From Tsuneonella rigui (GTDB lineage: Bacteria > Pseudomonadota > Alphaproteobacteria > Sphingomonadales > Sphingomonadaceae), in NCBI RefSeq assembly GCF_003958625.1, contig NZ_RSEL01000015.1, forward strand, positions 1-64,000: a stretch of 64,000 bases of DNA, read 5' to 3'. Below are positions 11,190-27,177 of this stretch, one piece after another; the first letter of the stretch is position 1, and each line of letters begins with the position of its first letter. The notes beneath the pieces are model-generated. The model was not told where the DNA came from and made no database searches. It saw only the letters and a program-made list of their open reading frames with translations. A program made the position numbers and the translations under genes.

Positions 11190-11909
11190 ATGAGCGAGGT
11201 ATCCAGGGGATCGGCATTGGCGGTCATCCCCGCGAGAGGTGGCAGCAAACGAATCTTGCGCAAGAACGTCCGCTTGTTCGCGGGTCGGCCGATGATTGCG
11301 TATGCCATTGCCGCGGCGCGAGAGTCCGCCCTGTTTTCACACATCGTGGTGACGACCGACGATCCCGAGATTGCCGAGATTGCCGTCGCCGAGGGAGCCG
11401 AAGTGCCGTTTGTGCGGCCTGCTGAACTCGCGGACGACTTCACCCCGACAGTGCCAGTGATCAAGCACGCCGTTGTCGCCTGCCAGGAGCTGGGTTGGCA
11501 TGCATCGCGCGTTTGCTGCATCTATCCTGGCGTCCCCTTCATCCAATCCGACGACTTGCGCGAAGCACTTGCGTTGCTCGACGCTTCGGGCGGCGACGAC
11601 TACGTTTTTCCGGTCGCCCATTTCGCGTCGCCCATTCAACGAGCGCTGCGCCGTGGTCCCGGCGGCGAAGTCGGGCCGTTCGACCCTCAGTATGCGGCCA
11701 CCCGGACACAGGACCTCGAGCCGGCGTATTTTGACGCGGGCCAGTTCTATTGGGGCGCCGCCGAAAACTGGCTGGCCGAGAAGAACATCCACGCCAACGG
11801 GCGCGCGATCGTCCTGCCCTCGTGGCGGGCGGTCGATATCGACACGCCTGAAGACTGGGAGCGAGCCGAAGCCTTGTGGCGCGCGAGCCGCCTTCCCGTC
11901 GGCGAATGA
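11190..11909 (+). CDS. pseF: Pseudaminic acid cytidylyltransferase
   Basis: 239 aa. It activates pseudaminic acid with CTP to give CMP-Pse, the donor for glycosyltransferases. The CMP-sialate synthetase fold is shown by AVIPARGGSKRILRKN at the N-terminus (nucleotide loop), GRPMIAYAI, TTDDPEIAEIA and a C-terminal DIDTPEDWERAE. Length is typical for PseF/NeuA. The ATG at 11190 has an AAGGGG Shine-Dalgarno 6 bases before it; an upstream extension lacks homology. It is the first gene of the plus-strand run and overlaps the PseG-PseH gene by 4 bp (ATGA). PseG, PseI, PseB and PseC in the locus favour pseudaminic over legionaminic acid. Confidence 0.9.
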   Translation: MSEVSRGSALAVIPARGGSKRILRKNVRLFAGRPMIAYAIAAARESALFSHIVVTTDDPEIAEIAVAEGAEVPFVRPAELADDFTPTVPVIKHAVVACQELGWHASRVCCIYPGVPFIQSDDLREALALLDASGGDDYVFPVAHFASPIQRALRRGPGGEVGPFDPQYAATRTQDLEPAYFDAGQFYWGAAENWLAEKNIHANGRAIVLPSWRAVDIDTPEDWERAEALWRASRLPVGE

Positions 11910-13396
11910 AGGTTGCTATCAGGGTTGATGCCTCCCCGGTCATCGGCATCGGTCATGCCCGGCGTTGCCTCGCTCTAGCGGCGGGCTTGCGAGAGATCGG
12001 GGCGGAGGTGCGCTTCGTTACCCGAAACCTCGGTTTGCCGATCGAGGATGAAGTACGCGCGGCGGGATTTGCCGCGACAGTGTTGCCCCGGCCGACGACG
12101 CCGAATAGCCCTGATCCCATCATCGCGCACTCCGCGTGGGCGGAAGTCTCAACCGAGCGCGACATAGCCGAAACCGCGGCGGCTTTGGCAGACTGGCCAG
12201 TCGAGTGGATGGTAGTCGACTCGTATGCGTTCGACGCCACCTGGCATCGAGGAATACGCGCAGTTCTAAAGAGCCGGGTGGCTGTCGTCGACGATCTCGC
12301 CGACCGCGCGCTCGATGCTGAAATGGTGATCGATCCTAACTTCGGCGCCGGGCAGACCGGCAAGTATGGCGCCGTCCTGCAGAGAAAAGCCCGCATCCTG
12401 GCGGGATCCCGGTTTGCGTTACTCGGCCCGGTCTATACGGCGGCAAAGCCGCTGGATCGCGTCGCCGAGGTGACCAGCATCGGCGTTTTTATGGGTGGGT
12501 TCGATCAGCTGGGCATCTCCGCTGTCGCCCTTAGCGCGGTGCGAGATGCGGGGTTCGAAGGTGCGGTTGAAGTGGTGGCGAGCACGAACGATCCACGGCT
12601 GGCGGAGATTCAAGCCGCGGTTACCGCCGATCCGAATGCGATGCTGTCATGCGATCTGCCCGATCTCGCCGGTTTCTTTGCCCGTCACGGGCTCCAAGTG
12701 GGCGCGGGTGGGGGAGCGACCTGGGAACGTTGCTGCCTTGGCGCGCCGAGCGTGCTGGTGATGACTGCCGAAAACCAGCGCGCAGTCATCCCCGCCCTTG
12801 CGGCAGCGGGAATTGTTGCCGCTTGCGAGCCCTCGCGGGCCGCCATCGCCGTGGAAGTGCGCGCGCTACTGGCCGATCCCGCCCGGCGGCAATCCATGGC
12901 GGACAACGCACGGCGACTGGTCGATGGACAAGGCGCCCGCCGTACGGCGCTTGCCCTGGCCGCTTCGACTCTGTCCGTACGCCCCGCCAGCATGGCTGAT
13001 GCGGCCATCATGCATCGATGGCGCAACGATCCGGTAACCCGCGCGGTTTCGCGCCAGGGCGAACCAATCGAGTTGGCCGCGCATATGGAGTGGTTGGACC
13101 GGGCGCTTGGCGATCCTGACCGGCAGGTGTTTGTCGGCATGATCGGCCCAGTTACAATCGGCGTTATCAGATTCGACCGGGCCGACGAAAGCTCGTGCGA
13201 GGTCTCGCTGTATCTGGATCCCGACCTGCACGGCCTCGGCCTGGGCGAGTATTTGCTCGCCGCGGGAGAACGGACCGTAGGGCGTGGATTGTGCATCGTA
13301 GCAGAGGTGCTAGAAGACAACCCCGGTTCGGCACGGCTGTTCGAGAAGAGCGGCTATCAGCGCGTGGCTTCAGGCTTCTTTCGTAAGCTGCGGTAA
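11906..13396 (+). CDS. pseG: PseG-PseH fusion: UDP-sugar hydrolase plus GNAT N-acetyltransferase
   Basis: 496 aa, two domains. Residues 1 to about 350 are a PseG-type UDP-2,4-diacetamido-2,4,6-trideoxy-beta-L-altropyranose hydrolase: the N-terminal MKVAIRVDASPVIGIGHARR contains the family GxGHxxR motif, and a later GGGATWERCCLGAPSVL fits the MurG-like C-lobe. From about residue 355 (LSVRPASMADAAI) to the end is a GNAT fold, with the acetyl-CoA region around LHGLGLGEYLLAAGE and the end typical of PseH (NPGSARLFEKSGYQR). Thus one polypeptide probably does the 4-N-acetylation and the next hydrolysis step. PseH and PseG are separate proteins in Campylobacter and Helicobacter. A second, free GNAT lies at 16738. 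Confidence 0.88.
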   Translation: MKVAIRVDASPVIGIGHARRCLALAAGLREIGAEVRFVTRNLGLPIEDEVRAAGFAATVLPRPTTPNSPDPIIAHSAWAEVSTERDIAETAAALADWPVEWMVVDSYAFDATWHRGIRAVLKSRVAVVDDLADRALDAEMVIDPNFGAGQTGKYGAVLQRKARILAGSRFALLGPVYTAAKPLDRVAEVTSIGVFMGGFDQLGISAVALSAVRDAGFEGAVEVVASTNDPRLAEIQAAVTADPNAMLSCDLPDLAGFFARHGLQVGAGGGATWERCCLGAPSVLVMTAENQRAVIPALAAAGIVAACEPSRAAIAVEVRALLADPARRQSMADNARRLVDGQGARRTALALAASTLSVRPASMADAAIMHRWRNDPVTRAVSRQGEPIELAAHMEWLDRALGDPDRQVFVGMIGPVTIGVIRFDRADESSCEVSLYLDPDLHGLGLGEYLLAAGERTVGRGLCIVAEVLEDNPGSARLFEKSGYQRVASGFFRKLR

Positions 13397-13422: not shown

Positions 13423-14466
13423 ATGAAAATCGGAGACCGGCAGGTCGGGCACGGCATGCGGCCTTACCTCATCGCTGAGATGTCGGGGAACCATAACCAG
13501 TCGCTGGATCGCGCACTCGAGATCGTCGAGGCCGCAGCAGCAAGCGGCGCCGACGCGATCAAGCTGCAGACCTATACCGCCGATACGATGACGCTCGACA
13601 TTCGCGCGCCGGGGTTCGTGATCGAGGATCCCGACAGCCTGTGGGCCGGTCGGCAACTGTACGAGCTTTACGACGAAGCGCACACCCCGTGGGAATGGCA
13701 TGCGCCGATCATGCAGCGGGCGCATGAGTTGGGAATAGCCTGCTTCTCCACGCCGTTCGATAACTCTGCGGTCGATTTTCTTGAGCAGCTCGGCGCGCCT
13801 GCTTACAAGATCGCCAGCTTCGAGGTGACTGACCTTCCGCTCATCAAGAAGGCTGCAGCTACCGGGAAGCCATTGATCCTCTCGACAGGGATGGCCACCA
13901 TGGCCGAGATCCAGGAGGCGGTCGATGCAGCGAAATCTGCGGGCAATAACGACATCGTGATTCTCAAGTGCACCAGCACGTATCCTGCAACGCCTGACAA
14001 CACGAACATCTCCACCATTCCCGACATGCGAGAAACGTTCGGGGTGGAGGTCGGCCTGAGCGATCACACAATGGGTTGCGGAGTGGCCGTGGCCGCGGTC
14101 GGCATGGGCGCGATTCTGATCGAAAAACATTTCACCCTGCGGCGAGCGGACGGCGGTGTCGATTCAAGTTTCAGCCTAGAGCCGAGCGAGTTTCGCATGC
14201 TGCGCGAAGAAAGCGACCGGGCCTGGCAGGCGATCGGCAAAGTCACGTATGGTGGTACGAACGCGGAAGACAAATCGCGCGCTTTCCGCCGTTCGCTGTA
14301 CATCGCCAAGGACATGGACGCGGGTGAAGAACTGACACCTGAAACTCTGCGGATCATTCGACCGGGTTTTGGCCTGCCGCCGAAGTTCTACGATGAAATG
14401 CTCGGCAAAAAGGTTCTCCGCCACGTAACCGCCGGCACGCCGCTCGCGTGGGACCTGGTGTCCTGA
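13423..14466 (+). CDS. pseI: Pseudaminic acid synthase
   Basis: 347 aa. It condenses 6-deoxy-AltdiNAc with phosphoenolpyruvate to form pseudaminic acid. The NeuB-type TIM barrel begins with YLIAEMSGNHNQSLDRAL and contains DAIKLQTYTADTMTLD, CFSTPFDNSAVDFLE, ILSTGMA and LIEKHFTL, all conserved in NeuB/PseI proteins. The last 60 residues are the SAF/antifreeze-like domain (RRSLYIAKDMDAGEELT to AGTPLAWDLV). KLQTYT with TLDI and the AxxMxGNHN motif suit PseI better than LegI or NeuB. It starts 26 bp after the PseG-PseH gene. Confidence 0.92.
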   Translation: MKIGDRQVGHGMRPYLIAEMSGNHNQSLDRALEIVEAAAASGADAIKLQTYTADTMTLDIRAPGFVIEDPDSLWAGRQLYELYDEAHTPWEWHAPIMQRAHELGIACFSTPFDNSAVDFLEQLGAPAYKIASFEVTDLPLIKKAAATGKPLILSTGMATMAEIQEAVDAAKSAGNNDIVILKCTSTYPATPDNTNISTIPDMRETFGVEVGLSDHTMGCGVAVAAVGMGAILIEKHFTLRRADGGVDSSFSLEPSEFRMLREESDRAWQAIGKVTYGGTNAEDKSRAFRRSLYIAKDMDAGEELTPETLRIIRPGFGLPPKFYDEMLGKKVLRHVTAGTPLAWDLVS

Positions 14467-14468
14467 GG
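14465..14468 (+). promoter_or_regulatory. Shine-Dalgarno GAGG that supports a CTG start
   Basis: GAGG, overlapping the pseI stop codon, stands 5 bases before the CTG at 14474. It is the only ribosome-binding signal placed to give an oxidoreductase with an intact Rossmann motif. Confidence 0.5.
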
Positions 14469-14473
14469 CCAAC

Positions 14474-15445
14474 CTGCATCGCGTTCTGATCATAGGCTGC
14501 GGCGCGATCGCCGGAGGCTTCGATGCTGATCGATCGGCAAATGATCCTGTGCGCACGCATGCCGCCGCGTATCTAGCAAACGGCGGCTTCCAACTGGCGG
14601 GATGCGTCGATCCTGACGAGGGGGCGCGGCGAGCGTTTGCCGCACGGTGGTCGGTTGCGGCCAGTGCGCCGTCAATCGAGGAGTTTGCGCCCGGCGAGTT
14701 TGACGTCATCTCTATCTGCTCGCCCACATGGAGCCATGCCGGCGATGTCGAAGCCGCGCTGGAACTTCGGCCGCGGTTGCTGTTTTGTGAAAAACCGGTG
14801 ACCGAAAGCGTTCGCGCCACCGAGGAGTTGGTAGCGCGTTGCGCAGCCCACGGCGTATTGCTGGGAGTCAACTACACGCGGCGATGGGCGCCCGACGTTG
14901 TGGAACTGGCGCACGGTCTTCGCGCGGGCCATTGGGGAGCGGTCCGCTCCGCAGTGGGCACGTATACCAAGGGCGTGCTCCACAACGGCGGTCATATGGT
15001 CGACCTGCTGCAGATGCTGCTGGGGCCGCTGGAGCTGGTCGCCACGGGCATGCCCGTCAACGATTTTTGGGACGACGATCCTTCGGTTCCGGCGATCCTC
15101 CGGTCGGGAGATGGGGTGTCAGTACAAATGGCACTCGGCGACGCTCGCGATTATGCGTTGTTCGAGGTTGTCCTGACGACTGAACGGGGCGAGATCGTCA
15201 TGCGCGACGGGGGTTTGTCTTGGACCGTCCGGCGACCGCAACCAAGCCTCGCATTTGCGGGTTACACAACGCTCGGCGCGCCGGAGCACACCAGCGGACG
15301 CTACTATGAAGCGATGCCCGCGGCCGTGACCAATATCGCGGCGGCGCTCGACCATGGTGTCGCGCTGGCATCAACGGGCCAATCCGCTCTTGCCGCCCAG
15401 CGTTTGTGCGAGCAGATGCGCGACGCCAGCAAGTACCACGCATAA
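14474..15445 (+). CDS. Gfo/Idh/MocA family NAD(P)-dependent oxidoreductase, probable CTG start
   Basis: About 323 aa when read from a CTG at 14474. The conventional GTG at 14549 gives only 298 aa and cuts off the dinucleotide-binding motif, because the upstream in-frame codons read RVLIIGCGAIAGGFD, a complete GxGxxAGG Rossmann loop. A GAGG Shine-Dalgarno at 14465-14468 stands 5 bases before the CTG, and no ATG, GTG or TTG lies between it and the previous gene in this frame. Further family marks are FCEKPVTES (the conserved EKP) and HNGGHMVDLL. Such enzymes oxidise or reduce a ring carbon of a nucleotide sugar. The DegT aminotransferase and GNAT that follow suggest oxidation, transamination and acylation of one position. 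Confidence 0.82.
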   Translation: MHRVLIIGCGAIAGGFDADRSANDPVRTHAAAYLANGGFQLAGCVDPDEGARRAFAARWSVAASAPSIEEFAPGEFDVISICSPTWSHAGDVEAALELRPRLLFCEKPVTESVRATEELVARCAAHGVLLGVNYTRRWAPDVVELAHGLRAGHWGAVRSAVGTYTKGVLHNGGHMVDLLQMLLGPLELVATGMPVNDFWDDDPSVPAILRSGDGVSVQMALGDARDYALFEVVLTTERGEIVMRDGGLSWTVRRPQPSLAFAGYTTLGAPEHTSGRYYEAMPAAVTNIAAALDHGVALASTGQSALAAQRLCEQMRDASKYHA

Positions 15446-15463
15446 TTACAGGATGCCGTTCCT

Positions 15464-16741
15464 ATGACGTCCGCGCTCGCCCTGTTGGGCGGACCCAAAT
15501 CGATCGATCGCCCGCTCGAACTGTTTCAAGCCATGGGAGAGGACGAAGTCGAGGCCGCTGCCCGCGTGGTCCGCTCGGGCGTGCTCTCGGCCTTCATCGG
15601 TGCGCCGGGGGAATTTTTCCTGGGCGGTCCCGAAGTGCGTGCTTTCGAAGCGAAGGCGGCGGACTATTTCGGGGTCAAGCACGCTATCAGCGTCAATTCG
15701 TGGACCTCTGGACTAATCTGCGCAATCGGAGCGGTGGGTATCGCACCGGGTGATGAAATCATCACCACCCCGTGGACGATGTCGGCGACTGCCATGGCGA
15801 TCCTGCATTGGAACGCGATCCCGGTCTTCGCGGACATCGATCCGGTCACCTTCAACATCGATCCTGCCAGCGTCGAGCGGTGCATCGGGCCCAAGACAAA
15901 AGCCATCATGGCAGTCGATATCTTCGGCCAATCCGCCGACATGGTGGAACTTCGCCAGATCGCCGAGCGCCATAATCTGGCGCTACTGAGCGATACGGCT
16001 CAGGGACCAGGTGCCAAAGTAGGAAACCGCTTCGCGGGTACAGTGGCGGATATCGGCGGCTTCAGCCTCAATTATCACAAGCATATCCACTGCGGTGAAG
16101 GCGGCGTCCTGGTCACCGATAATGATCGGCTGGCGGAGCGGATGCAGCTCTTACGCAATCATGCTGAATCCGTGCTCAAGAGCGACGACCCGGCCGAATA
16201 CGTCAACATGATCGGATACAACTTCCGCATGGGCGAAATCGAGGCGGCGATTGCCGCACTCCAGCTCGACAAACTGAAAGCCCGGGTGGAAAGCCGGCAG
16301 CGCGCCGCTCGCCAGTTGGATGAAGGTCTGGCCGGCTTGGAGGGGCTTACCACGCCGCAGACCACCGATGGCGCCACGCACGTTTATTATGTTTATGGGA
16401 TGAAGCTCGATACCGAGAAGCTGGGAGTCACGCGCGAACAACTGGTGGCGGCCTTGCAGGCTGAGGGCGTCCCCGGCTTGTTCGCGGGTTATCAAAACCT
16501 GCACCTTCTCCCGATCTTCCAGCATCGGATCGCCTACGGCCCGGACCATTTCCCCTGGAGTCTCGCGTCGAGAGAGATCGCCTATGGACCCGGCACATGC
16601 CCGGTGGCGGAGGAACTCCATACTCGTTCGTTCATGGGGCTTAATCTCTGCATGTGCGAATACCCGCCCGAAGATGTTGCGGCCGTGATCACCGCGTTTC
16701 GCAAGGTTTGGAGCGGACTGGGCGAACTCCGCCTGCGATGA
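15464..16741 (+). CDS. DegT/DnrJ/EryC1/StrS family aminotransferase
   Basis: 425 aa PLP-dependent sugar aminotransferase. The PLP lysine is Lys206 in NYHKHIHCGEGG, the usual K-x4-GEGG context, and DTAQGPGA precedes it as the cofactor-ring Asp region. It starts with the LALLGGPKSI leader of the longer members (type VI/StsC-like), about 40-60 residues longer than PseC. It is therefore not a second PseC but probably transaminates the keto-sugar made by the neighbouring MocA oxidoreductase, which ends 18 bp upstream. The end overlaps the GNAT gene by 4 bp. Substrate unknown; amino donor is normally glutamate. Confidence 0.88.
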   Translation: MTSALALLGGPKSIDRPLELFQAMGEDEVEAAARVVRSGVLSAFIGAPGEFFLGGPEVRAFEAKAADYFGVKHAISVNSWTSGLICAIGAVGIAPGDEIITTPWTMSATAMAILHWNAIPVFADIDPVTFNIDPASVERCIGPKTKAIMAVDIFGQSADMVELRQIAERHNLALLSDTAQGPGAKVGNRFAGTVADIGGFSLNYHKHIHCGEGGVLVTDNDRLAERMQLLRNHAESVLKSDDPAEYVNMIGYNFRMGEIEAAIAALQLDKLKARVESRQRAARQLDEGLAGLEGLTTPQTTDGATHVYYVYGMKLDTEKLGVTREQLVAALQAEGVPGLFAGYQNLHLLPIFQHRIAYGPDHFPWSLASREIAYGPGTCPVAEELHTRSFMGLNLCMCEYPPEDVAAVITAFRKVWSGLGELRLR

Positions 16742-17265
16742 AGGAGCCAGTGCATCTCGAGGGAGCGTTGGTCCGGATTGAGCGATTCGAAGAACGTGAC
16801 CTGAGCGAGCGATATCTGGGCTGGCTCAATGATCCTGAAACGATGCGGTTCTCCAATCAGCGATTCCGCGATCACGATCTCGCGAGCTGCCGGCACTATT
16901 TCGACACGTTCGCTGACAGCGAGAATGATTTCCTCTCAGTGCGTCGCCGCGGCGGTGGCGATGCGATCGGCACGATGACCGTGTACCACAACCAGCATCA
17001 CGGCACCGCAGACGTGGGGATCATGATCGGGGACCGATCTTGCTGGGGACGCGGCTTCGGGCAGGATGCCTGGGACACCGTGCTTTCCTGGCTGCTGGGC
17101 CCGCGCGGAACGCGCAAGGTGACTGCCGGGACTGTGGCGTCCAATCGGGGAATGGTCCGCTTGATGGAACGTTCCGGAATGACGCTCGAAGGGGTCCGTC
17201 GAGGGCAGGAACTGATCGACGGTACGCCAGAAGACATCGTTCTCTACGGCAAATTTGCTCGATGA
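16738..17265 (+). CDS. GNAT family N-acetyltransferase
   Basis: 175 aa of the RimJ/RimL-like GNAT type (Acetyltransf_3). Visible marks are VRIERFEERDLSERYLGWLNDPE at the N-terminus, VGIMIGDRSCWGRGFGQDAW for the beta4/acetyl-CoA loop, and RKVTAGTVASNRGMVRLMERSGM for the C-terminal part. The starting ATG overlaps the aminotransferase stop (ATGA), which ties the two together: aminotransferase followed by acylase of the new amine. Since PseH activity can be supplied by the domain fused to PseG, this enzyme probably acylates another amine or an alternative acyl group. Alternatively this one is PseH and the fused domain does the extra step. Confidence 0.85.
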   Translation: MKEPVHLEGALVRIERFEERDLSERYLGWLNDPETMRFSNQRFRDHDLASCRHYFDTFADSENDFLSVRRRGGGDAIGTMTVYHNQHHGTADVGIMIGDRSCWGRGFGQDAWDTVLSWLLGPRGTRKVTAGTVASNRGMVRLMERSGMTLEGVRRGQELIDGTPEDIVLYGKFAR

Positions 17266-18125
17266 TGGGGTTGGCCGAACCGGTCGCCGTCGTCGCGCAC
17301 GATGCAGGGGCGGCGAACATCATGCTGGCTTGGCTCGAGGCGGAGGAAAGCGCCGGTACCAGGGCCGTGATGGCCGGGCCTGCACAAGAGCTCTGGCACG
17401 CCAAATTCGGAAATACACCGCTGTGCGAGTCGGTCGATCAGGCCCTCGACGGTTCTGCCGCGCTCTTGAGCGGCACCGGCTGGGCGGCCACAATTGAGCA
17501 CGATGCCCGCATTGCTGCACGCGAGCGTGGAATTGAATCGATCGCGGTGATCGACCACTGGGTCAATTATCGGGAGCGCTTTGAGCGTGATGGCGTAACC
17601 GTGTTGCCGGATCGCGTTTGGGTGACCGATCTCGAAGCATTGGCGATCGCTCAGCGCACGCTGCCCGAGGTCGTGGCAGAGCTCAAACCCAACGCCTATC
17701 TGCAGGAACAAGCTGCGGGGGCGGGTCCGGTGCCCGCTGATGGTGACTTGCTATTCTTCGCCGAGCCTGCGCGTGCCGATTGGGGACAGGGGTTGCCAGG
17801 TGAGTTCCAGGCGCTGGAATTTCTCTACAGTCACGCTGTCCTTGCGGGAGTGCCGGAGGACACGCCGTTGCGGATCAGGCTGCACCCATCAGACCCCGCG
17901 GGCAAGTACGATGAATGGCTCTCGCGCCATCCCTCGGCTACTCTCGATCAATCGCCGGACGTCTCGTCCGCGTTGGCAAGTGCCCGTTTCGCGGCGGGGA
18001 TGAACTCGGCCGCGCTCGCAATCGCGCTCGCCGCGGGACGCAGCACGATCGTTGCGCTGCCTCCGGCCGCGCCCCCATGTGTCCTCCCGCACGCTGGCCT
18101 GCTGCACTTGCGCGATCGGGTCTGA
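17262..18125 (+). CDS. Unknown protein, possibly GT-B-like glycosyltransferase, 287 aa
   Basis: The start ATG at 17262 (or the next ATG at 17265) overlaps the GNAT stop. The sequence begins EPVAVVAHDAGAANIMLAWL, a Rossmann-like start with an HDAGAA motif. Its C-terminal half contains PLRIRLHPSDPAGKYDEWL, the RLHPsD pattern seen in polysialyltransferase-like and capsule GT-B proteins, followed by ARFAAGMNSAALAIALAAGRSTIVALP, which resembles a nucleotide-sugar-binding lobe. No family can be assigned with certainty. The gene lies inside the nonulosonate run, so a transferase using CMP-Pse or the modified sugar is a reasonable guess. Confidence 0.55.
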   Translation: MMGLAEPVAVVAHDAGAANIMLAWLEAEESAGTRAVMAGPAQELWHAKFGNTPLCESVDQALDGSAALLSGTGWAATIEHDARIAARERGIESIAVIDHWVNYRERFERDGVTVLPDRVWVTDLEALAIAQRTLPEVVAELKPNAYLQEQAAGAGPVPADGDLLFFAEPARADWGQGLPGEFQALEFLYSHAVLAGVPEDTPLRIRLHPSDPAGKYDEWLSRHPSATLDQSPDVSSALASARFAAGMNSAALAIALAAGRSTIVALPPAAPPCVLPHAGLLHLRDRV

Positions 18126-18188: not shown

Positions 18189-19316
18189 ATGAAATACTGC
18201 ATTCGTTGCCTGCAGCCGGATACGCGGCCCAACACCCAGTTTTCGCCAGCCGGTGTATGCCCCGCGTGCGACTATTTCGAGCGGTTGCAAGAAGTCGATT
18301 GGCACGAACGCTACGAGATTCTCGAAGATTTGCTGGCTGGATATAAACGCCGCCCCGGACAGCAATGGGACTGTATAATTGGAGTGTCGGGTGGCAAGGA
18401 TTCGACCCGTCAAGCTTTGTGGGTGCGCGATAAATTGGGGCTCAACCCGCTCCTGGTTTGCCTGAGTTACCCGCCAGAGCAGGTAACCGAGCGTGGGGTG
18501 GAAAATCTCTCGACTTTGATCGAGGCCGGGTTCGACCTGGTGATGAGCGGGCCCGCACCGCAAACCTGGCGCAAGCTGATGCGCGAAGCGTTTGCCCAGT
18601 TCACCAACTGGGCCCGATCGACTGAATTGGCCCTGTTCAGCTCGGTACCTCAGCTGGCGATCCGGTATCAAATTCCATTGATACTATGGGGTGAGAATCC
18701 GGGCCTGCAGTTGGGCGATCTCAAGACGCTCGGCCGCACCGGATATGATGGCAACAACTTGCGGTACATGAATACGCTCTCGGGGGGCGGGCTCGATTGG
18801 ATGCTCGACGTGGCCGAGATGAAGTCAATGATCCCCTATCAGTATCCGAGTCCGGAAGACTTCGACGCACATTCGTTGCAGATCGTCTATTTGGGCTGGT
18901 TCCTGGGCGATTGGTCGCTGACTAACAACGGTCTTTACGCTGCGGTGAACGGCCTAGAGTTGCGCACCGACACCGTGAAGAACACCGGCGATTTGCGCGG
19001 GGTCACGTCGCTCGACGAGGATTGGGTAACGCTCAATCAGATGATCAAGTTTTACAAGTTCGGCTTCGGTCGAGTGACCGATTACGTCAACGAGGAAATC
19101 CGCCTCAAGCGGCTGACGCGTGCGGAAGGCATCGACCTGGTTACCCGGTACGATGACAGTTGCTCGCCGGAATACATCGCTCAATTCTGCGACTACATCG
19201 GGATTTCGGTCGATCAGTTCTGGGAGCAGGTGCGGACTTCGATCAACAAGGATTTGTTCGATGTACGACCCAACGGCTTGATCGAACGCAAGTATGAAGT
19301 GGGAGTCGGATTGTGA
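18189..19316 (+). CDS. pseA: N-acetyl sugar amidotransferase (PseA/WbpG type)
   Basis: 375 aa PP-loop ATPase that, with a HisH/HisF-type ammonia supply, turns an N-acetyl group into an acetamidino group. The N-terminus has a zinc-type pair, CIRC at the start and CPAC about 24 residues later. The ATP-binding PP-loop SGGKDS occupies residues 67-72. RYQIPLILWGENPG and IPYQYP are further family stretches. The ATG at 18189 was chosen because homology begins at MKYCIRC; an upstream in-frame extension is not family-like. It overlaps the HisH-like gene by 4 bp (GTGA), which supports the three-protein unit known from Pseudomonas WbpG-HisH2-HisF2. Confidence 0.88.
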   Translation: MKYCIRCLQPDTRPNTQFSPAGVCPACDYFERLQEVDWHERYEILEDLLAGYKRRPGQQWDCIIGVSGGKDSTRQALWVRDKLGLNPLLVCLSYPPEQVTERGVENLSTLIEAGFDLVMSGPAPQTWRKLMREAFAQFTNWARSTELALFSSVPQLAIRYQIPLILWGENPGLQLGDLKTLGRTGYDGNNLRYMNTLSGGGLDWMLDVAEMKSMIPYQYPSPEDFDAHSLQIVYLGWFLGDWSLTNNGLYAAVNGLELRTDTVKNTGDLRGVTSLDEDWVTLNQMIKFYKFGFGRVTDYVNEEIRLKRLTRAEGIDLVTRYDDSCSPEYIAQFCDYIGISVDQFWEQVRTSINKDLFDVRPNGLIERKYEVGVGL

Positions 19317-19921
19317 TCCGCCGGACCATCGGCATCGTCGACTACGGAGTCGGCAACCATGCGTCGGTTCGGCAGACGCTATATTCGATCGGCTACCGGT
19401 GCAGGGTCAGCGGCGATCGCGACGTGCTCGCCGATGCCGACCTGCTGGTGTTGCCCGGGGTGGGTGCCTTCGGGGCGGCGATGGAGAAAATTCACGCGCT
19501 GAACCTTGCAGGTTTCCTGTGCGATCAAGCCCGCAGCGGACAGCCGATGATCGGGCTCTGTCTCGGCATGCAGCTATTGGCGGACGGATCGCTGGAGCAT
19601 GGCTACCATGCCGGACTTGGACTTATCCCTGGTGAGGTGATGCCCCTCGAGCAGGCGCGGTGGCATATCGGCTGGAATACCATTGAAGTCATCGGCGGCG
19701 ACCCCATGCTGCAAGGTGCCGATCGCAAATCGATGTACTTCAATCACAGCTATTATTTTCAGGCGGCGCCCGAGTTCACTGTCTGCATGGCCCGGATCGA
19801 GCAGCCGTTTACGGTCGGCGTGCGACGGCGCAACATCGTAGGCCTGCAATTCCATCCTGAAAAGAGCCAGGATGCAGGCCGTGACTTGTTGCAAAACGTC
19901 GTTGAAGGGCTCTGCGCATGA
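19313..19921 (+). CDS. hisH: HisH-like glutamine amidotransferase subunit
   Basis: 202 aa class-I glutamine amidotransferase. It hydrolyses glutamine and hands ammonia to the HisF-like partner. The catalytic triad is complete: Cys83 in GLCLGMQ, His181 and Glu183 in FHPEKS. The oxyanion region LPGVGAFGAAM is also present. It starts with GTG overlapping the PP-loop amidotransferase and ends 4 bp inside the HisF-like gene. Standing between amidotransferases in a glycan locus and without any his gene nearby, it most likely serves sugar amidination rather than histidine synthesis. Confidence 0.88.
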   Translation: MIRRTIGIVDYGVGNHASVRQTLYSIGYRCRVSGDRDVLADADLLVLPGVGAFGAAMEKIHALNLAGFLCDQARSGQPMIGLCLGMQLLADGSLEHGYHAGLGLIPGEVMPLEQARWHIGWNTIEVIGGDPMLQGADRKSMYFNHSYYFQAAPEFTVCMARIEQPFTVGVRRRNIVGLQFHPEKSQDAGRDLLQNVVEGLCA

Positions 19922-20676
19922 TCGGCAAGCGCATAGTCGGCGTAGTGACGGTGAAGGACGGCTGGGCCGTCCAGTCATTCGGATACAATCGCTACCTCCC
20001 GTTAGGGAGACCCGAGGTGCTGGTCGAAAACCTGGACCGTTGGGGAGCCGACGAGATCCTGCTGCAGTGCATAGATCGCAGCGCCGCCGGCCTCGGACCG
20101 GACATGGCGCTGCTTGATCGCATCGGACGGCGGGGGCTCTCGACGCCGATGATCTACGCCGGCGGCGTGCGCCACGACCAGGACGCGGTCGACGTCGTCA
20201 ATGCAGCTGCCGATCGCGTTGCGGTCGATGCATTGCTGCGCGACGATCTGGACGCGATCGCGCGCGCCGGAGCCCGCCTCGGTAACCAGGCGATGATCGC
20301 ATCGGTGCCCCTGACGGTCGATGGCTGGTTCGACTATCGGACCAGGCAGGTCGGCGGAGTCCCGTCGGCCATCCTGGACGCACTTGCGTCGGGCATCCTG
20401 TCCGAGACTCTGGCGATAGATGCGGTCCATGAAGGAACGCCGGGGTCCTTCAACGATGAGCTGTTCCGAGCCTTACCGGGGACATTCCCGTTGATCGCAT
20501 TCGGCGGTATCTCAGAGCCGGCACAAATCCGATCCCTCCTTACCAATCCGCGCGTGGTCGCAGTGTGTGTGGGCAACTTCCTTTCTTACCGAGAGAATGC
20601 CGTGAATCTTCTGAAGGAAGCGGTGCCGGGCGTTCCGGTTCGCCCTGCCGCCTATCACGCGACCCGGTACGGCTGA
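19918..20676 (+). CDS. hisF: HisF-like ammonia-channelling barrel, cyclase residues lost
   Basis: 252 aa (beta/alpha)8 barrel of the HisF family. The N-terminus MIGKRIVGVVTVKDGWAVQS aligns without gaps to HisF, but the catalytic aspartate at position 11 (LDVKDG in Thermotoga HisF) is Thr11 here. The second catalytic aspartate, in the AID strand near residue 130, is also missing: the region reads QAMIASVPLTVDG. The phosphate-binding parts (YAGGVRH, FGGISEPAQ) are recognisable though altered. An intact barrel with both cyclase acids gone fits a protein that only conducts ammonia from HisH to an amidotransferase. Overlaps the HisH-like gene by 4 bp; one base separates it from the second amidotransferase. 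Confidence 0.85.
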   Translation: MIGKRIVGVVTVKDGWAVQSFGYNRYLPLGRPEVLVENLDRWGADEILLQCIDRSAAGLGPDMALLDRIGRRGLSTPMIYAGGVRHDQDAVDVVNAAADRVAVDALLRDDLDAIARAGARLGNQAMIASVPLTVDGWFDYRTRQVGGVPSAILDALASGILSETLAIDAVHEGTPGSFNDELFRALPGTFPLIAFGGISEPAQIRSLLTNPRVVAVCVGNFLSYRENAVNLLKEAVPGVPVRPAAYHATRYG

Positions 20677-20677
20677 C

Positions 20678-21922
20678 ATGACCTTATCGTCTGCGCGCGC
20701 GTGTGCCCGCTGCCTCTATACCACTCGCCACCCGCTCGGTCTTGTCCTGGACGATGACGGCATCTGCTCAGGGTGCCGGGTTCATGAAGAGAAGGATCGC
20801 CTGGACTTCGATGCGCGCTGGCGAAGACTACTGGAAATTGTCGAGCCGTATCGTGCGAAAAGCGGCACCACATACGATTGCATCGTGCCTGTAAGCGGCG
20901 CCGGCGACAGCCACTGGATCGTTCATCTCGTCAAGGAACGGCTCGGCCTGAACCCCCTCCTGGTGACGTACAACAAGTACTTCAACACCCCGCTAGGGGT
21001 TCGCAATCTTGCCAATCTGCGCATCAAATTCGATTGCGATATTCTGGTCCAGAACGTGAATCCGGTGTCCGTGAGGAATATAACCCGGACGACCCTCCGG
21101 ATGTTCGGATCGATGTATTGGCCCTGTCTGGCGGGACAGACGGTGTTCCCGGTGCAAACCGCTGTGCGATACCAGGTGCCCTTGATCATCTGGGGCGCGC
21201 ACCAAGGGCTCGAGCAGGTGGGGATGTTCAGTCACGAGCACGAAGTCGAGATGACCCGCCGGCATCGCAAGGACCATGACCTGATGGGCCATGAGGCGGA
21301 CGACCTGCTCTCGATCTTCGACACCCTGAACGAGCGTGACATCTGGCAATACCGCTACCCGGACGATGCGGACCTCCGTGCGGTGGGGGTGCGCGGAATC
21401 TACCTCGGCAACTATGTTCGCTGGGATCCGAAGGCGCAGCACGAGCAGATGGTGGCAACGCATGGATATGAAGGCGCGCGCTTCGCGCGGACCTTCGACA
21501 CCTACGACTACGTCGATTGCTTCAACTACATGGGTATCCATGATGCGCTGAAGATGGCCAAGCATGGCTATTCCAAAGTCACCGATCACGCATGCCGGGA
21601 AATCCGCTTCGGTCGTCTGACCCGTGACGAAGGGCTGGCGCTGGTCCGGAAGTACGAAGGCGGACAGACGCAATATCTCGATCTCTTTCGGGAATGGCTC
21701 GGCATCGAGCAAAGCGGTTTGAACTTCGTGATCAACGAGCACCGCAATCGCAATTTCTGGATGGAGGCGGCCCCTGGAGAATGGACCCGGCTTCCGGTGG
21801 CCGAGGCCCCGGCATGCGATATCGCCGCGGTGGAAGAGCGGCTCGATTTCCGCGCTCAGCGCGCGCTCGATTACACCGAGCGGGGCCGTTACATCACCAT
21901 CGGCAAGGGTTACCCGCTCTGA
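20678..21922 (+). CDS. Second N-acetyl sugar amidotransferase (WbpG-like), variant PP-loop
   Basis: 414 aa, clearly related in layout to the protein encoded at 18189: an N-terminal pair CARC and CSGC, a PP-loop near residue 73, and a C-terminal part rich in aromatic residues (YVDCFNYMGIHDALKMAKHGYSKVTD). The PP-loop reads SGAGDS (residues 73-78) instead of SGGKDS, so the lysine is replaced by glycine. YRYPDDADLRAVGVRGIYLGNYVRWD matches the family's mid region. It begins one base after the HisF-like stop. It may be a second amidotransferase using the same ammonia supply at another N-acetyl position, or a diverged partner subunit. The two are paralogues, not duplicates: lengths and motifs differ. 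Confidence 0.83.
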   Translation: MTLSSARACARCLYTTRHPLGLVLDDDGICSGCRVHEEKDRLDFDARWRRLLEIVEPYRAKSGTTYDCIVPVSGAGDSHWIVHLVKERLGLNPLLVTYNKYFNTPLGVRNLANLRIKFDCDILVQNVNPVSVRNITRTTLRMFGSMYWPCLAGQTVFPVQTAVRYQVPLIIWGAHQGLEQVGMFSHEHEVEMTRRHRKDHDLMGHEADDLLSIFDTLNERDIWQYRYPDDADLRAVGVRGIYLGNYVRWDPKAQHEQMVATHGYEGARFARTFDTYDYVDCFNYMGIHDALKMAKHGYSKVTDHACREIRFGRLTRDEGLALVRKYEGGQTQYLDLFREWLGIEQSGLNFVINEHRNRNFWMEAAPGEWTRLPVAEAPACDIAAVEERLDFRAQRALDYTERGRYITIGKGYPL

Positions 21923-21985: not shown

Positions 21986-22861
21986 ATGAATCCCGTCCGT
22001 AAACTGTATAGCACGTTGAGATGGCGACTGATTCCGGTGCGCTATGCCGGGAAGATGGTGCGTCAGTTGACCGCACGGTCCGTTCCTGCACGGATGGCGT
22101 CGGGCGCCGCGAACGATACCGGCTACGCATCTTGCAGCGATGAGATGCACCGGTGTGGCTTCGCTTCGGGTCCGACAATCCCTGCGCCGGATCTCGCCGC
22201 GATGCAGGATATCTACGGCTCGCGCAGCAAGGCGGTCGTGCCCAAGGCGGGCGGGCACCCGTTCACCAATCTCTTTCGGGAAGACGATCTCTCGGCGGAC
22301 AATCCGGTCTTTCGGTTTGCTTTGTCCCCCGCTGTGCTCGACGCTGCTCACGCCTATTTCGATGGGCGTTTCCAGTTCGATTCGATTCAGGTCCTCTACT
22401 CGTGGCCGACCGATGGAGACCTGCTGGAAAGTCAGCTCTGGCATAAGGACTACGGCGATTCGAGCGCGTTCCACTGTGTCGCCTATCTGAACGACGTCGT
22501 CACACCGGAAGACGGCCCCTTCGTGTTCGTCGATCGGCAAGACTCGGCGCGGATACGCAGCTCGATCTTCATTCGGCGTATCGACGACAGCACTTTTGCC
22601 CAAGAGCTGTCGGGGGGCGAGGTGCGGAGCTTTTTGGCGCCGGCGGGTCATTCGGTCCTGGTCGATCCATCGGTCTGCTATCACTACGGCAGCCGCTGCC
22701 GGCGGCCGCGGCTGGCGATCTTCGCGACATTCAGCACCGACAAACCGTACGTGGGAGCACAGCCGCTGATACGCCGCAATGCCCGCCGGGCCGCTTCGGC
22801 CGCAAAGCTGGTCAGACCTGATCTCTCGGCAGCCTATCTCGACCGCCTGTTTGGCGCATAG
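21986..22861 (+). CDS. PhyH-like 2-oxoglutarate/Fe(II) dioxygenase
   Basis: 291 aa. The double-stranded beta-helix of phytanoyl-CoA dioxygenase-like enzymes is suggested by the facial triad: His153 and Asp155 in WHKDYGDS, and His233 in VCYHYGSRC, followed by Arg residues (RRPRLAIF) fit to bind 2-oxoglutarate. The loop YLNDVVTPEDGPFVFV between them is typical of the family, where it carries the GP motif. The first 50 residues are basic and unlike the domain. No transmembrane helix or signal is seen. In this position it could hydroxylate a sugar or a lipid carrier part; substrate unknown. Confidence 0.78.
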   Translation: MNPVRKLYSTLRWRLIPVRYAGKMVRQLTARSVPARMASGAANDTGYASCSDEMHRCGFASGPTIPAPDLAAMQDIYGSRSKAVVPKAGGHPFTNLFREDDLSADNPVFRFALSPAVLDAAHAYFDGRFQFDSIQVLYSWPTDGDLLESQLWHKDYGDSSAFHCVAYLNDVVTPEDGPFVFVDRQDSARIRSSIFIRRIDDSTFAQELSGGEVRSFLAPAGHSVLVDPSVCYHYGSRCRRPRLAIFATFSTDKPYVGAQPLIRRNARRAASAAKLVRPDLSAAYLDRLFGA

Positions 22862-24977: not shown

Positions 24978-26165
24978 TCAGAGGGCGACCGCCAACTCTC
25001 GTGCGACCCGATCCTGCGATTCCTCTGACAGCCGCGGATAAAGCGGGAGAGAGACGGCGTTGGCATAATAGGCTTCCGCTGCGGGGTAATCGCCTGGCTT
25101 GAAACCCAGCCGCTGATAATAGGGCTGCAAGTGGATCGGGATATAATGAACGTTTACTCCGATCCCTGCCTCCCGCAGCCGAGCGAACAGACTCGCTCTC
25201 GTGGCGGAAGTCCCGGCGGGATCGATCTCGACCACATATAGGTGATGGGCTGACACGGCATTAGGCCGGGCTGACGGCAGCTTGAGCGGCATATCGGCGA
25301 GCAGGCGGTTGTAACGATTCACCAAGCTCTCCCTGCGCGCCTGCATACTGGGCAAGCGGGCAAGCTGCGACCGTCCCAATGCCGCCTGAAGATCGGTCAT
25401 GCGGTAGTTGTAACCCAGCAGGACCTGCTCGTAGTACCAGTCTCCAGGCACCGGCTCTTCCATCAGATCGCGATCGCGCGTTATCCCGTGGCTGGCCAAC
25501 AAGCGCATACGCTGCGCCAAACCGGCATCGTCGGTCGCACATAGCCCGCCTTCGGCAGTGGTGACGATTTTGACGGCGTGGAAACTGAACACGGTGATAT
25601 CGGCCCAGGCGCTTCCGACCATATTGCCGTCGAGCGACGCGCCCACCGCGTGCGATGCGTCCTCGACTATCTTGAAGCCGTACCGGTCTGCAAGTGTCCG
25701 GATGGCGGGCATATCGGACGGCATTCCCGCGAAGTCGACCGGGATCACGATCTTCGGCAATTCACCGGACGATTCCGCCGCCGCGAGCTTTTCGGCGAGT
25801 GCTGCCACACTCATCGTGCGGCTGATAGGATCGATATCAACGAAATCGGCCTCGGCGCCGCAATACCGGATGCAATTGGCGGAAGCGACGAAGCTGTTCG
25901 GCACGGTCCAAGCGCGATCACCCGGACCGAGGCCGAGCGCGAGGCAGGCGATGTGCAGGCCGGCCGTCGCATTCGAGACAGCTATGCAATGCGCAATGTC
26001 ATGCAACTCGGCGAACGCCCGTTCGAACGCGGGAATTTCCGGCCCCTGGGTGAGGAAGGGACTTTTAAGGGCGCCGACGACCGCAGCGACGTCCTCATCC
26101 TCGATCGTTTGACAGGAGTACGGGATATAGGCGTTCGCCGGGCTTGCATTGGCGTCAGTCGCCAT
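24978..26165 (-). CDS. pseC: UDP-4-amino-4,6-dideoxy-N-acetyl-beta-L-altrosamine transaminase
   Basis: 395 aa PLP aminotransferase that converts the 4-keto product of PseB into the 4-amino sugar. N-terminal AYIPYSCQTIEDEDVAAVV with LKSPFLTQGPEIPAFE is the signature of PseC. The PLP lysine is Lys199 in HAVKIVTTAEGG, and DASHAVGAS holds the Asp that binds the pyridine ring. The ATG at 26165 overlaps the pseB stop by 11 bp and starts just before the conserved part; longer in-frame starts lie within pseB. Although needed early in the pathway, pseB and pseC sit at the far end of the minus-strand export operon, convergent with the other pse genes. Confidence 0.92.
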   Translation of the reverse strand: MATDANASPANAYIPYSCQTIEDEDVAAVVGALKSPFLTQGPEIPAFERAFAELHDIAHCIAVSNATAGLHIACLALGLGPGDRAWTVPNSFVASANCIRYCGAEADFVDIDPISRTMSVAALAEKLAAAESSGELPKIVIPVDFAGMPSDMPAIRTLADRYGFKIVEDASHAVGASLDGNMVGSAWADITVFSFHAVKIVTTAEGGLCATDDAGLAQRMRLLASHGITRDRDLMEEPVPGDWYYEQVLLGYNYRMTDLQAALGRSQLARLPSMQARRESLVNRYNRLLADMPLKLPSARPNAVSAHHLYVVEIDPAGTSATRASLFARLREAGIGVNVHYIPIHLQPYYQRLGFKPGDYPAAEAYYANAVSLPLYPRLSEESQDRVARELAVAL

Positions 26166-27177
26166 AAGACAGGTCCGGAACATGCCGCGCGATGAGATCT
26201 CGCAGCGCATCGACCGAGAGAAAATCCGTGTTGTCGCCGCTGTTGTACGCAAAGCCTGGCGGAACCATGGTGACTCCTTGGCGGGCGCAGTACTCAGCGA
26301 TCAGATCAGCGTTGCCGGAGGGCAGGATGGCATAATAGGGCCCGAGATCGACGGTGTTGGGGCTGTCGGAGCTGGTGATCATCTCTTCATGGATCTTCTC
26401 GCCCGGACGTATCCCGACCACGTCATGCGCAGCATCTGGAGCGATTGCCGTCGCGACATCGGTAATTCGGTACGACGGGATCTTGGGAACGAAGATTTCT
26501 CCGCCCGTCGCATGGGCAATGGCCCACAACACCATGTCCACTCCGTCGTCGAGCGAGATGTTGAAGCGCGTCATGGCGGGATCGGTGATCGGCAGAACGC
26601 CATCGTCGCGCCGCGAAAGGAAGAACGGGATCACCGATCCGCGGCTACCCATCACGTTGCCGTAGCGCACCACGCTGAAGTTGATGTCGCGATCACCGCG
26701 GATGTTGTTTGCCGCAATGAATAGCTTGTCCGAACACAGCTTGGTTGCGCCATACAGGTTTACCGGCGCCGCGGCCTTGTCCGTGCTGAGCGCCACGACC
26801 TTCCGCACGCCGTTGTCGAGTGCAGCATCGATCAGGTTCTGCGCCCCGATGACATTCGTCTTGATGCATTCGAAAGGATTGTATTCCGCCGCGGGCACCT
26901 GCTTCAGCGCGGCCGCGTGGACTACGATGTCGATGCCTTCGAGCGCCCGACGTAAGCGCGCCTCGTCACGGATGTCGCCGATAAAGAACCGGAGCGCCTG
27001 ATGCCGGTCGGTCGGAAACTGTTGTTGCATCTCAAACTGTTTAAGTTCGTCGCGCGAGTAGATCACCAGCCGGCGGACGTCCGGATATTCGGCCAGCACG
27101 CGGCGAACGAATGCCTTGCCGAACGAACCAGTGCCGCCAGTCACGAGAATCGTTTTTTCGTTAAGTCCTTCAGTCAC
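26155..27177 (-). CDS. pseB: UDP-N-acetylglucosamine 4,6-dehydratase (inverting)
   Basis: 340 aa SDR that makes UDP-2-acetamido-2,6-dideoxy-beta-L-arabino-hexos-4-ulose, the first step to pseudaminic acid. Motifs: TGGTGSFGKAFV (Rossmann), YSRDELKQFEMQ (typical PseB/FlaA1 soluble group), and catalytic Tyr142 and Lys146 in NLYGATK. A tyrosine at this place fits the short soluble PseB enzymes; the large membrane dehydratase at 36952 has methionine instead. It starts with GTG, preceded by an AAGAAGA purine run. The 46-bp gap upstream is unusually AT-rich (CAAATAAATTTGG) for this region. Confidence 0.93.
   Translation of the reverse strand: MTEGLNEKTILVTGGTGSFGKAFVRRVLAEYPDVRRLVIYSRDELKQFEMQQQFPTDRHQALRFFIGDIRDEARLRRALEGIDIVVHAAALKQVPAAEYNPFECIKTNVIGAQNLIDAALDNGVRKVVALSTDKAAAPVNLYGATKLCSDKLFIAANNIRGDRDINFSVVRYGNVMGSRGSVIPFFLSRRDDGVLPITDPAMTRFNISLDDGVDMVLWAIAHATGGEIFVPKIPSYRITDVATAIAPDAAHDVVGIRPGEKIHEEMITSSDSPNTVDLGPYYAILPSGNADLIAEYCARQGVTMVPPGFAYNSGDNTDFLSVDALRDLIARHVPDLSYGD

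Follow-up and report, generated by a model that had tools for sequence, protein, structure and literature searches.

Why should a gene cluster for a bacterial surface sugar carry two amidotransferase genes around a single source of ammonia? The question is raised by a stretch of 64,000 nucleotides from the alphaproteobacterium Tsuneonella rigui (contig NZ_RSEL01000015.1, positions 1 to 64,000; this whole stretch is called the window below), in which two members of the N-acetyl sugar amidotransferase (NASAT) family, A1 and A2, enclose a HisH-like glutaminase and a HisF-like barrel in the order A1-HisH-HisF-A2. We propose, with a probability of roughly 0.45, that A1 and A2 depend on each other functionally, possibly as subunits of a heteromeric amidotransferase, and receive their ammonia from HisH-HisF. 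What is observed is that both belong to the NASAT family, that they are almost always paired, that their residue changes are complementary and that they lie in a pseudaminic-acid pathway cluster; the ammonia channelling, the chemistry, the substrate and a physical A1-A2 complex are inferred.

Results

Two distant NASAT paralogues in one unit

The four genes are tightly packed on the + strand, and a check of the open reading frames in the window reproduced the coordinates and junctions of the initial annotation: A1 and HisH overlap by 4 bp (GTGA), HisH and HisF overlap by 4 bp (ATGA) at the HisH stop (19921), and the A2 start (20678) follows the HisF stop (20676) after a one-base gap. Both outer proteins exceed the curated cut-off of 203.2 bits of TIGR03573 (N-acetyl sugar amidotransferase, NASAT/WbuX), A1 with 271 bits and A2 with 309.5 bits, bearing out the earlier view that two NASAT-family proteins flank a single HisH/HisF pair in a pseudaminic-acid cluster. 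LpNASAT (8wex) is a PDB relative of both and the best solved fold match of both predicted structures (E 5.7e-23 and 1.6e-22; predicted local distance difference test score 89 for A1 and 83.7 for A2), which places the two models in the NASAT fold. The Zn tetracysteine is found at C4-C7...C24-C27 in A1 and at C9-C12...C30-C33 in A2, its four cysteines being invariant across each clade, and many further residues besides the ATP loop and the Zn site are invariant in the A1 clade.

The description of both proteins as PP-loop amidotransferases holds for A1, which has SGGKDS at residues 67-72, but not for A2, whose loop in this window reads SGAGDS (residues 73-78) and is no standard SGGxDS PP-loop. 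At position 174, A1 has Gln where other NASATs carry Glu or Asp; the acid is retained in A2 as Glu179. Neither the altered A2 loop nor the missing A1 acid was remarked on in the initial annotation. Since A1 and A2 share only about 30% identity and fall into separate clades on long branches, a recent tandem duplication was rejected and the two are best classed as distant paralogues. The idea that A2 is a plain pseudoenzyme is likewise unsupported, as its loop Asp and Ser and many of its pocket residues are invariant.

Pairing across genomes

The genome-context survey of the gene order that the initial annotation had proposed was carried out with A2 as the probe in one genome per species, yielding 131 relatives, the best 80 of which (51-77% identity) were kept. 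The exact order A1-HisH-HisF-A2 occurs at 75 of these 80 loci and, with extra His genes downstream, at 3 more; the two exceptions are L048, which is cut by a contig edge, and L109, which has A2 and A1 with no HisH-HisF between or near them. An arrangement shared by 78 of the 80 A2-bearing loci across many phyla is not due to chance. The unit was found in Pseudomonadota, Cyanobacteria (Pseudanabaena, Prochlorococcus), Bacteroidota, Chlorobiota, Verrucomicrobiota, several candidate phyla and one Woesearchaeota (archaeal) metagenome-assembled genome (MAG), although many of the loci come from MAGs and single taxonomic placements may be wrong. The unit is thus widespread and no isolated oddity of this window.

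Within this breadth its occurrence is scattered: it is carried by 3 of about 120 near relatives, the genome of the window included, and by 4 of 385 genomes drawn randomly from the class. All four genomes of the random draw with an A1-type gene have an A2-type gene about 2.5 kb away, and four of the five with an A2-type gene have an A1-type gene; in the fifth (G676) a canonical SGGKDS NASAT directly follows the A2-type gene. The pair is also kept in G442, where the order is rearranged to HisH-HisF-A2-A1. A search for plasmid copies turned up only distant NASATs. A Pelagibacteraceae single-cell contig (L101) has two inverted copies of the unit, one of them cut short, and this may be an assembly artefact. 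Among viral contigs, L158, L159 and L160 have a lone A1-like NASAT beside PseB-, PseI- and DegT-like genes, with no HisH on the contig, and L165, L166, L169, L174, L178 and L182 have a canonical NASAT with HisF-like, PseB-like and PseI-like genes.

Changes in the ATP loop and the acidic pocket

Divergence was surveyed in 81 A1 and 82 A2 sequences against 47 ordinary NASATs from relatives. In the ordinary NASATs the third PP-loop position is Gly in 100%, and an acidic residue stands at alignment column 269, after the GEN motif, in about 96%; this conserved Glu/Asp is a criterion derived in the present analysis, not a published one. The A1 clade is invariant for SGGKDS (81/81), but at the acid position it has Gln in 73 of 81 sequences (90%) and Glu or Asp in none (0/81), and all A1 have Asn at a His position that A2 keeps. 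The A2 clade retains the acid (E/D) together with this His, and its loop follows the pattern [S/T]G[A/G/S]xDS: the third position is Ala in 80%, Gly in 14% (12/82) and Ser in 4%, the lysine is absent from 81 of 82 sequences, and the loop Asp (100%) and Ser (97%) are kept. In the tree, the lysine disappears on the branch that leads to the paired A2 clade (support 99); the nearest unpaired relatives of A2 all retain GGKDS with the lysine. At the A1 Gln/A2 Glu site a direct comparison of the A1 and A2 profiles is locally ambiguous (a one-residue gap), and the reading given here rests on aligning each to canonical NASATs and A2-like singletons. By these alignments A1 and A2 have each lost a different standard NASAT feature, and this complementary divergence is the new point. 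Because the losses differ, the two proteins probably depend on each other.

The HisH-HisF pair and the surrounding cluster

HisH scores 186 bits against TIGR01855 (cut-off 105.4), its catalytic Cys and His-Pro-Glu motifs are intact and its catalytic columns are conserved. HisF reaches only 69.3 bits against WbuZ (cut-off 299.7) and 55.5 bits against AglZ/HisF2 (cut-off 310), far below both equivalog cut-offs, and is accordingly classed as a divergent relative; the HisF proteins of the module carry invariant residues of their own. It would probably serve as the ammonia conduit. Separate, true HisF and HisH genes are present in the same genome (contig C20).

The features of the locus are collected in Table 1, in which neighbour counts refer to the 61 loci with at least 9 kb of upstream sequence. 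PseB, PseC, PseF, PseG and PseI each score above their NCBIfam cut-offs, and on these scores the unit sits inside a complete pseudaminic-acid pathway cluster, which adjoins Wzc, export and Wzy-type genes. PseG and PseH are fused within a single reading frame (11906-13396), the C-terminal PseH part scoring 52.6 bits against TIGR03585, below the cut-off of 93.1. A PseI-type synthase is present at 56 of the 61 loci, and most of these score as PseI while some are closer to NeuB.

Table 1. Genes of the A1-HisH-HisF-A2 unit and of its neighbourhood in the window
Feature	Coordinates	Strand	Remarks
PseF, CMP-pseudaminate synthase	11190..11909	+	TIGR03584 273.6 bits, above cut-off
PseG-PseH fusion (hydrolase + N-acetyltransferase)	11906..13396	+	TIGR03590 213 bits, above cut-off
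PseI, pseudaminic acid synthase	13423..14466	+	TIGR03586 495 bits, above cut-off
GFO/IDH/MocA oxidoreductase	14468..15445	+	PF01408; in 36/61 loci
DegT-type aminotransferase, PseC-like	15464..16741	+	TIGR03588 222 bits, below cut-off 423.5; in 38/61 loci
GNAT acetyltransferase	16732..17265	+	PF13302; in 32/61 loci
Unclassified protein directly upstream of A1	17262..18125	+	No Pfam/NCBIfam match; conserved in 31/61 loci
A1, NASAT/WbuX paralogue 1	18189..19316	+	ATG start 18189; stop ends 19316; 375 aa
HisH-like glutaminase	19313..19921	+	GTG start 19313; 202 aa; TIGR01855
HisF-like barrel, divergent	19918..20676	+	ATG start 19918; 252 aa; PF00977
A2, NASAT/WbuX paralogue 2	20678..21922	+	ATG start 20678; 414 aa
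PseC transaminase	24978..26189	-	TIGR03588 502.5 bits, above cut-off
PseB, UDP-GlcNAc 4,6-dehydratase (inverting)	26155..27177	-	TIGR03589 516.9 bits, above cut-off

The GFO and DegT genes occur together at 36 of the 61 loci, and 22 have none of the GFO, DegT and GNAT genes or the upstream protein and still keep A1 and A2. A GFO-DegT-GNAT triplet such as that beside PseI (14468-17265) could add a third amino group, and an 8-amino nonulosonic acid has been reported for Flexibacter (Tenacibaculum) maritimus (PMC3210612). Such a group was nevertheless rejected as the reason for two NASATs, given the 22 clusters that lack the set. The unclassified protein upstream of A1 is possibly glycosyltransferase-like, as judged by inspection. 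Several of the 22 loci have another open reading frame before A1, a methyltransferase in the two tested: at L059, L060, L063, L066 and L093 this frame directly precedes A1, those of L059 and L060 match methyltransferase families, and those of L063, L066 and L093 resemble these two in their first residues only. Legionaminic acid is known to carry N-methylacetimidoyl groups. Downstream of A2, the protein at 21986-22861 has no Pfam/NCBIfam match, but its HKDYGDS resembles a 2-oxoglutarate dioxygenase motif by inspection; at about 10 of the 61 loci such a protein is found close to the unit, together with CapS and a hexapeptide acetyltransferase.

Discussion

How might two such paralogues work together? 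The LpNASAT study assigns ATP binding to the PP-loop and regards conserved acidic residues on the pocket's tetracysteine side as probably catalytic (PMC10607449). If this view of LpNASAT holds, the pair divides features that one NASAT combines. Glutamine would be hydrolysed by HisH, and the ammonia would reach the NASAT component by way of the divergent HisF; there, ATP would activate the acetamido oxygen such that ammonia can replace it. This component would consist of two mutually dependent paralogues, most likely as a heteromeric enzyme, in which A1 would supply the intact ATP loop and A2, having given up the canonical loop and kept the acidic and histidine pocket residues lost by A1, would complete or position the substrate site. 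The product would be a nonulosonic acid bearing one or more acetamidino groups, in this window most likely a modified pseudaminic acid, and this sugar would be destined for a Wzx/Wzy-type surface polysaccharide. We prefer interdependence because of the near-obligate pairing, the complementary losses and the parallel with the Ctu1/Ctu2 tRNA thiolase.

Several observations weigh against this proposal. With its loop Asp and Ser retained and its pocket strongly conserved, A2 may bind ATP and be active. A canonical subgroup with SGG[V/L/I]DS likewise lacks the lysine and occurs as the sole NASAT beside HisH-HisF, so a missing lysine does not by itself imply an inactive enzyme. The acid is also missing from the lone A1-like proteins of three viral contigs, none of which has an A2 or a HisH, indicating that an A1-type acid loss does not need an A2. 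The loop change and the acid change each arose essentially once, so that there are no independent replicates, and operon co-transfer could explain part of the A1-A2 linkage. Finally, neither A1 nor A2 shows raised conservation at the columns that match the LpNASAT crystal dimer interface.

It is quite possible, and we regard it as a serious rival ranked below interdependence, that A1 and A2 are independent NASATs of different positional specificity that share one HisH-HisF and yield a doubly amidinated product. In pseudaminic acid the two acetamidino groups could sit at C5 and C7, for instance, or C8 could bear one if the GFO, DegT and GNAT enzymes add a third amino group. Pseudaminic acid bears two N-acyl groups, both proteins are full length and retain the loop Asp and Ser as well as the Zn tetracysteine, their invariant pocket residues differ, and the presence of two canonical NASATs near one HisH-HisF in G428 and L145 makes a shared ammonia source plausible. 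However, single losses would be expected often if the enzymes were independent and are almost never seen, complementary residue losses would be unexpected, and the open literature searched yielded no nonulosonic acid with two acetamidino groups, an absence that is weak evidence. The initial annotation had offered a sugar with two acetamidino groups and a heteromeric enzyme side by side; the pairing and the complementary losses favour interdependence or a heteromer over two free-standing enzymes, and the product may still be a doubly amidinated sugar.

We consider it unlikely that A1 no longer amidinates, performing instead another ATP-dependent sugar reaction (with a different amine donor or N-substituent) or a regulatory function while A2 and HisH-HisF alone make the acetamidino group. 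Such a role would accord with an acid loss that defines the whole A1 clade, including the lone viral A1-like proteins, on whose loci no HisH or HisF was found; yet the ATP loop of A1 is perfect, its Zn site and many invariant residues are retained, its gene lies immediately before HisH and overlaps it by 4 bp, A2 almost always accompanies it, and the viral contigs are fragments. Less probable still is that A1 and A2 act on two different sugars of the polymer, in the manner of Campylobacter PseA and PtmG (pseudaminic and legionaminic acid): the extra oxidoreductase, aminotransferase and GNAT genes of many clusters could make a second amino sugar, but the 22 of 61 clusters without them keep both A1 and A2.

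Acetamidino groups give bacterial surface sugars positive charge. To our knowledge, the mechanism of NASATs is hardly known, with one crystal structure and little biochemistry, and a naturally divided pair would help to assign roles to individual residues. The unit would also mark a class of surface sugars of predictable structure that occurs commonly among environmental bacteria, Prochlorococcus and SAR11 relatives being examples. While the component parts are known, no published description of a conserved four-gene unit with a divided NASAT pair was found in the open literature, most subscription journals lying outside the scope of the search; the initial annotation knew of no described example either. 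It is quite possible, although we advance this more tentatively than the interdependence of A1 and A2, that these units represent a widespread, undescribed two-paralogue sugar amidotransferase that splits the ATP site and the acidic pocket between its two members and is supplied by a dedicated HisH-HisF, present across bacterial phyla and in at least one archaeal MAG.

Among the closest known systems, the tRNA thiolase Ctu1/Ctu2 (Ncs6/Ncs2) is likewise a paralogous PP-loop pair with one loosened loop and both Zn sites kept, although reaction and substrate differ and the analogy is one of organisation, not of family membership. The loop reads SGGKDS in Ctu1 and a looser SGGXXS in Ctu2; neither protein is dispensable, and the two are proposed to form a heterodimer (PMC10067955, PMC4014090). 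Campylobacter, compared by description only, also has two NASATs per genome in nonulosonic acid modification, PseA and PtmG. These act on different sugars, pseudaminic acid and legionaminic acid. The link of ptmG to legionaminic acid has been described (PMC13130089). WbpG/WbuX with HisH2-HisF2 in Pseudomonas aeruginosa and E. coli O145 also combines a NASAT with HisH- and HisF-like proteins, encoded together in a gene cluster for a surface polysaccharide, but that system has one NASAT where the unit has two, and the HisF of the unit scores far below the WbuZ and AglZ/HisF2 models. LpNASAT of Legionella pneumophila (PDB 8WEX) has its fold and Zn tetracysteine in common with both A1 and A2 and its SGGKDS loop in common with A1; it is a single protein that crystallised as a homodimer, whereas in the unit described here the loop is altered in A2 and the acid is lost from A1.

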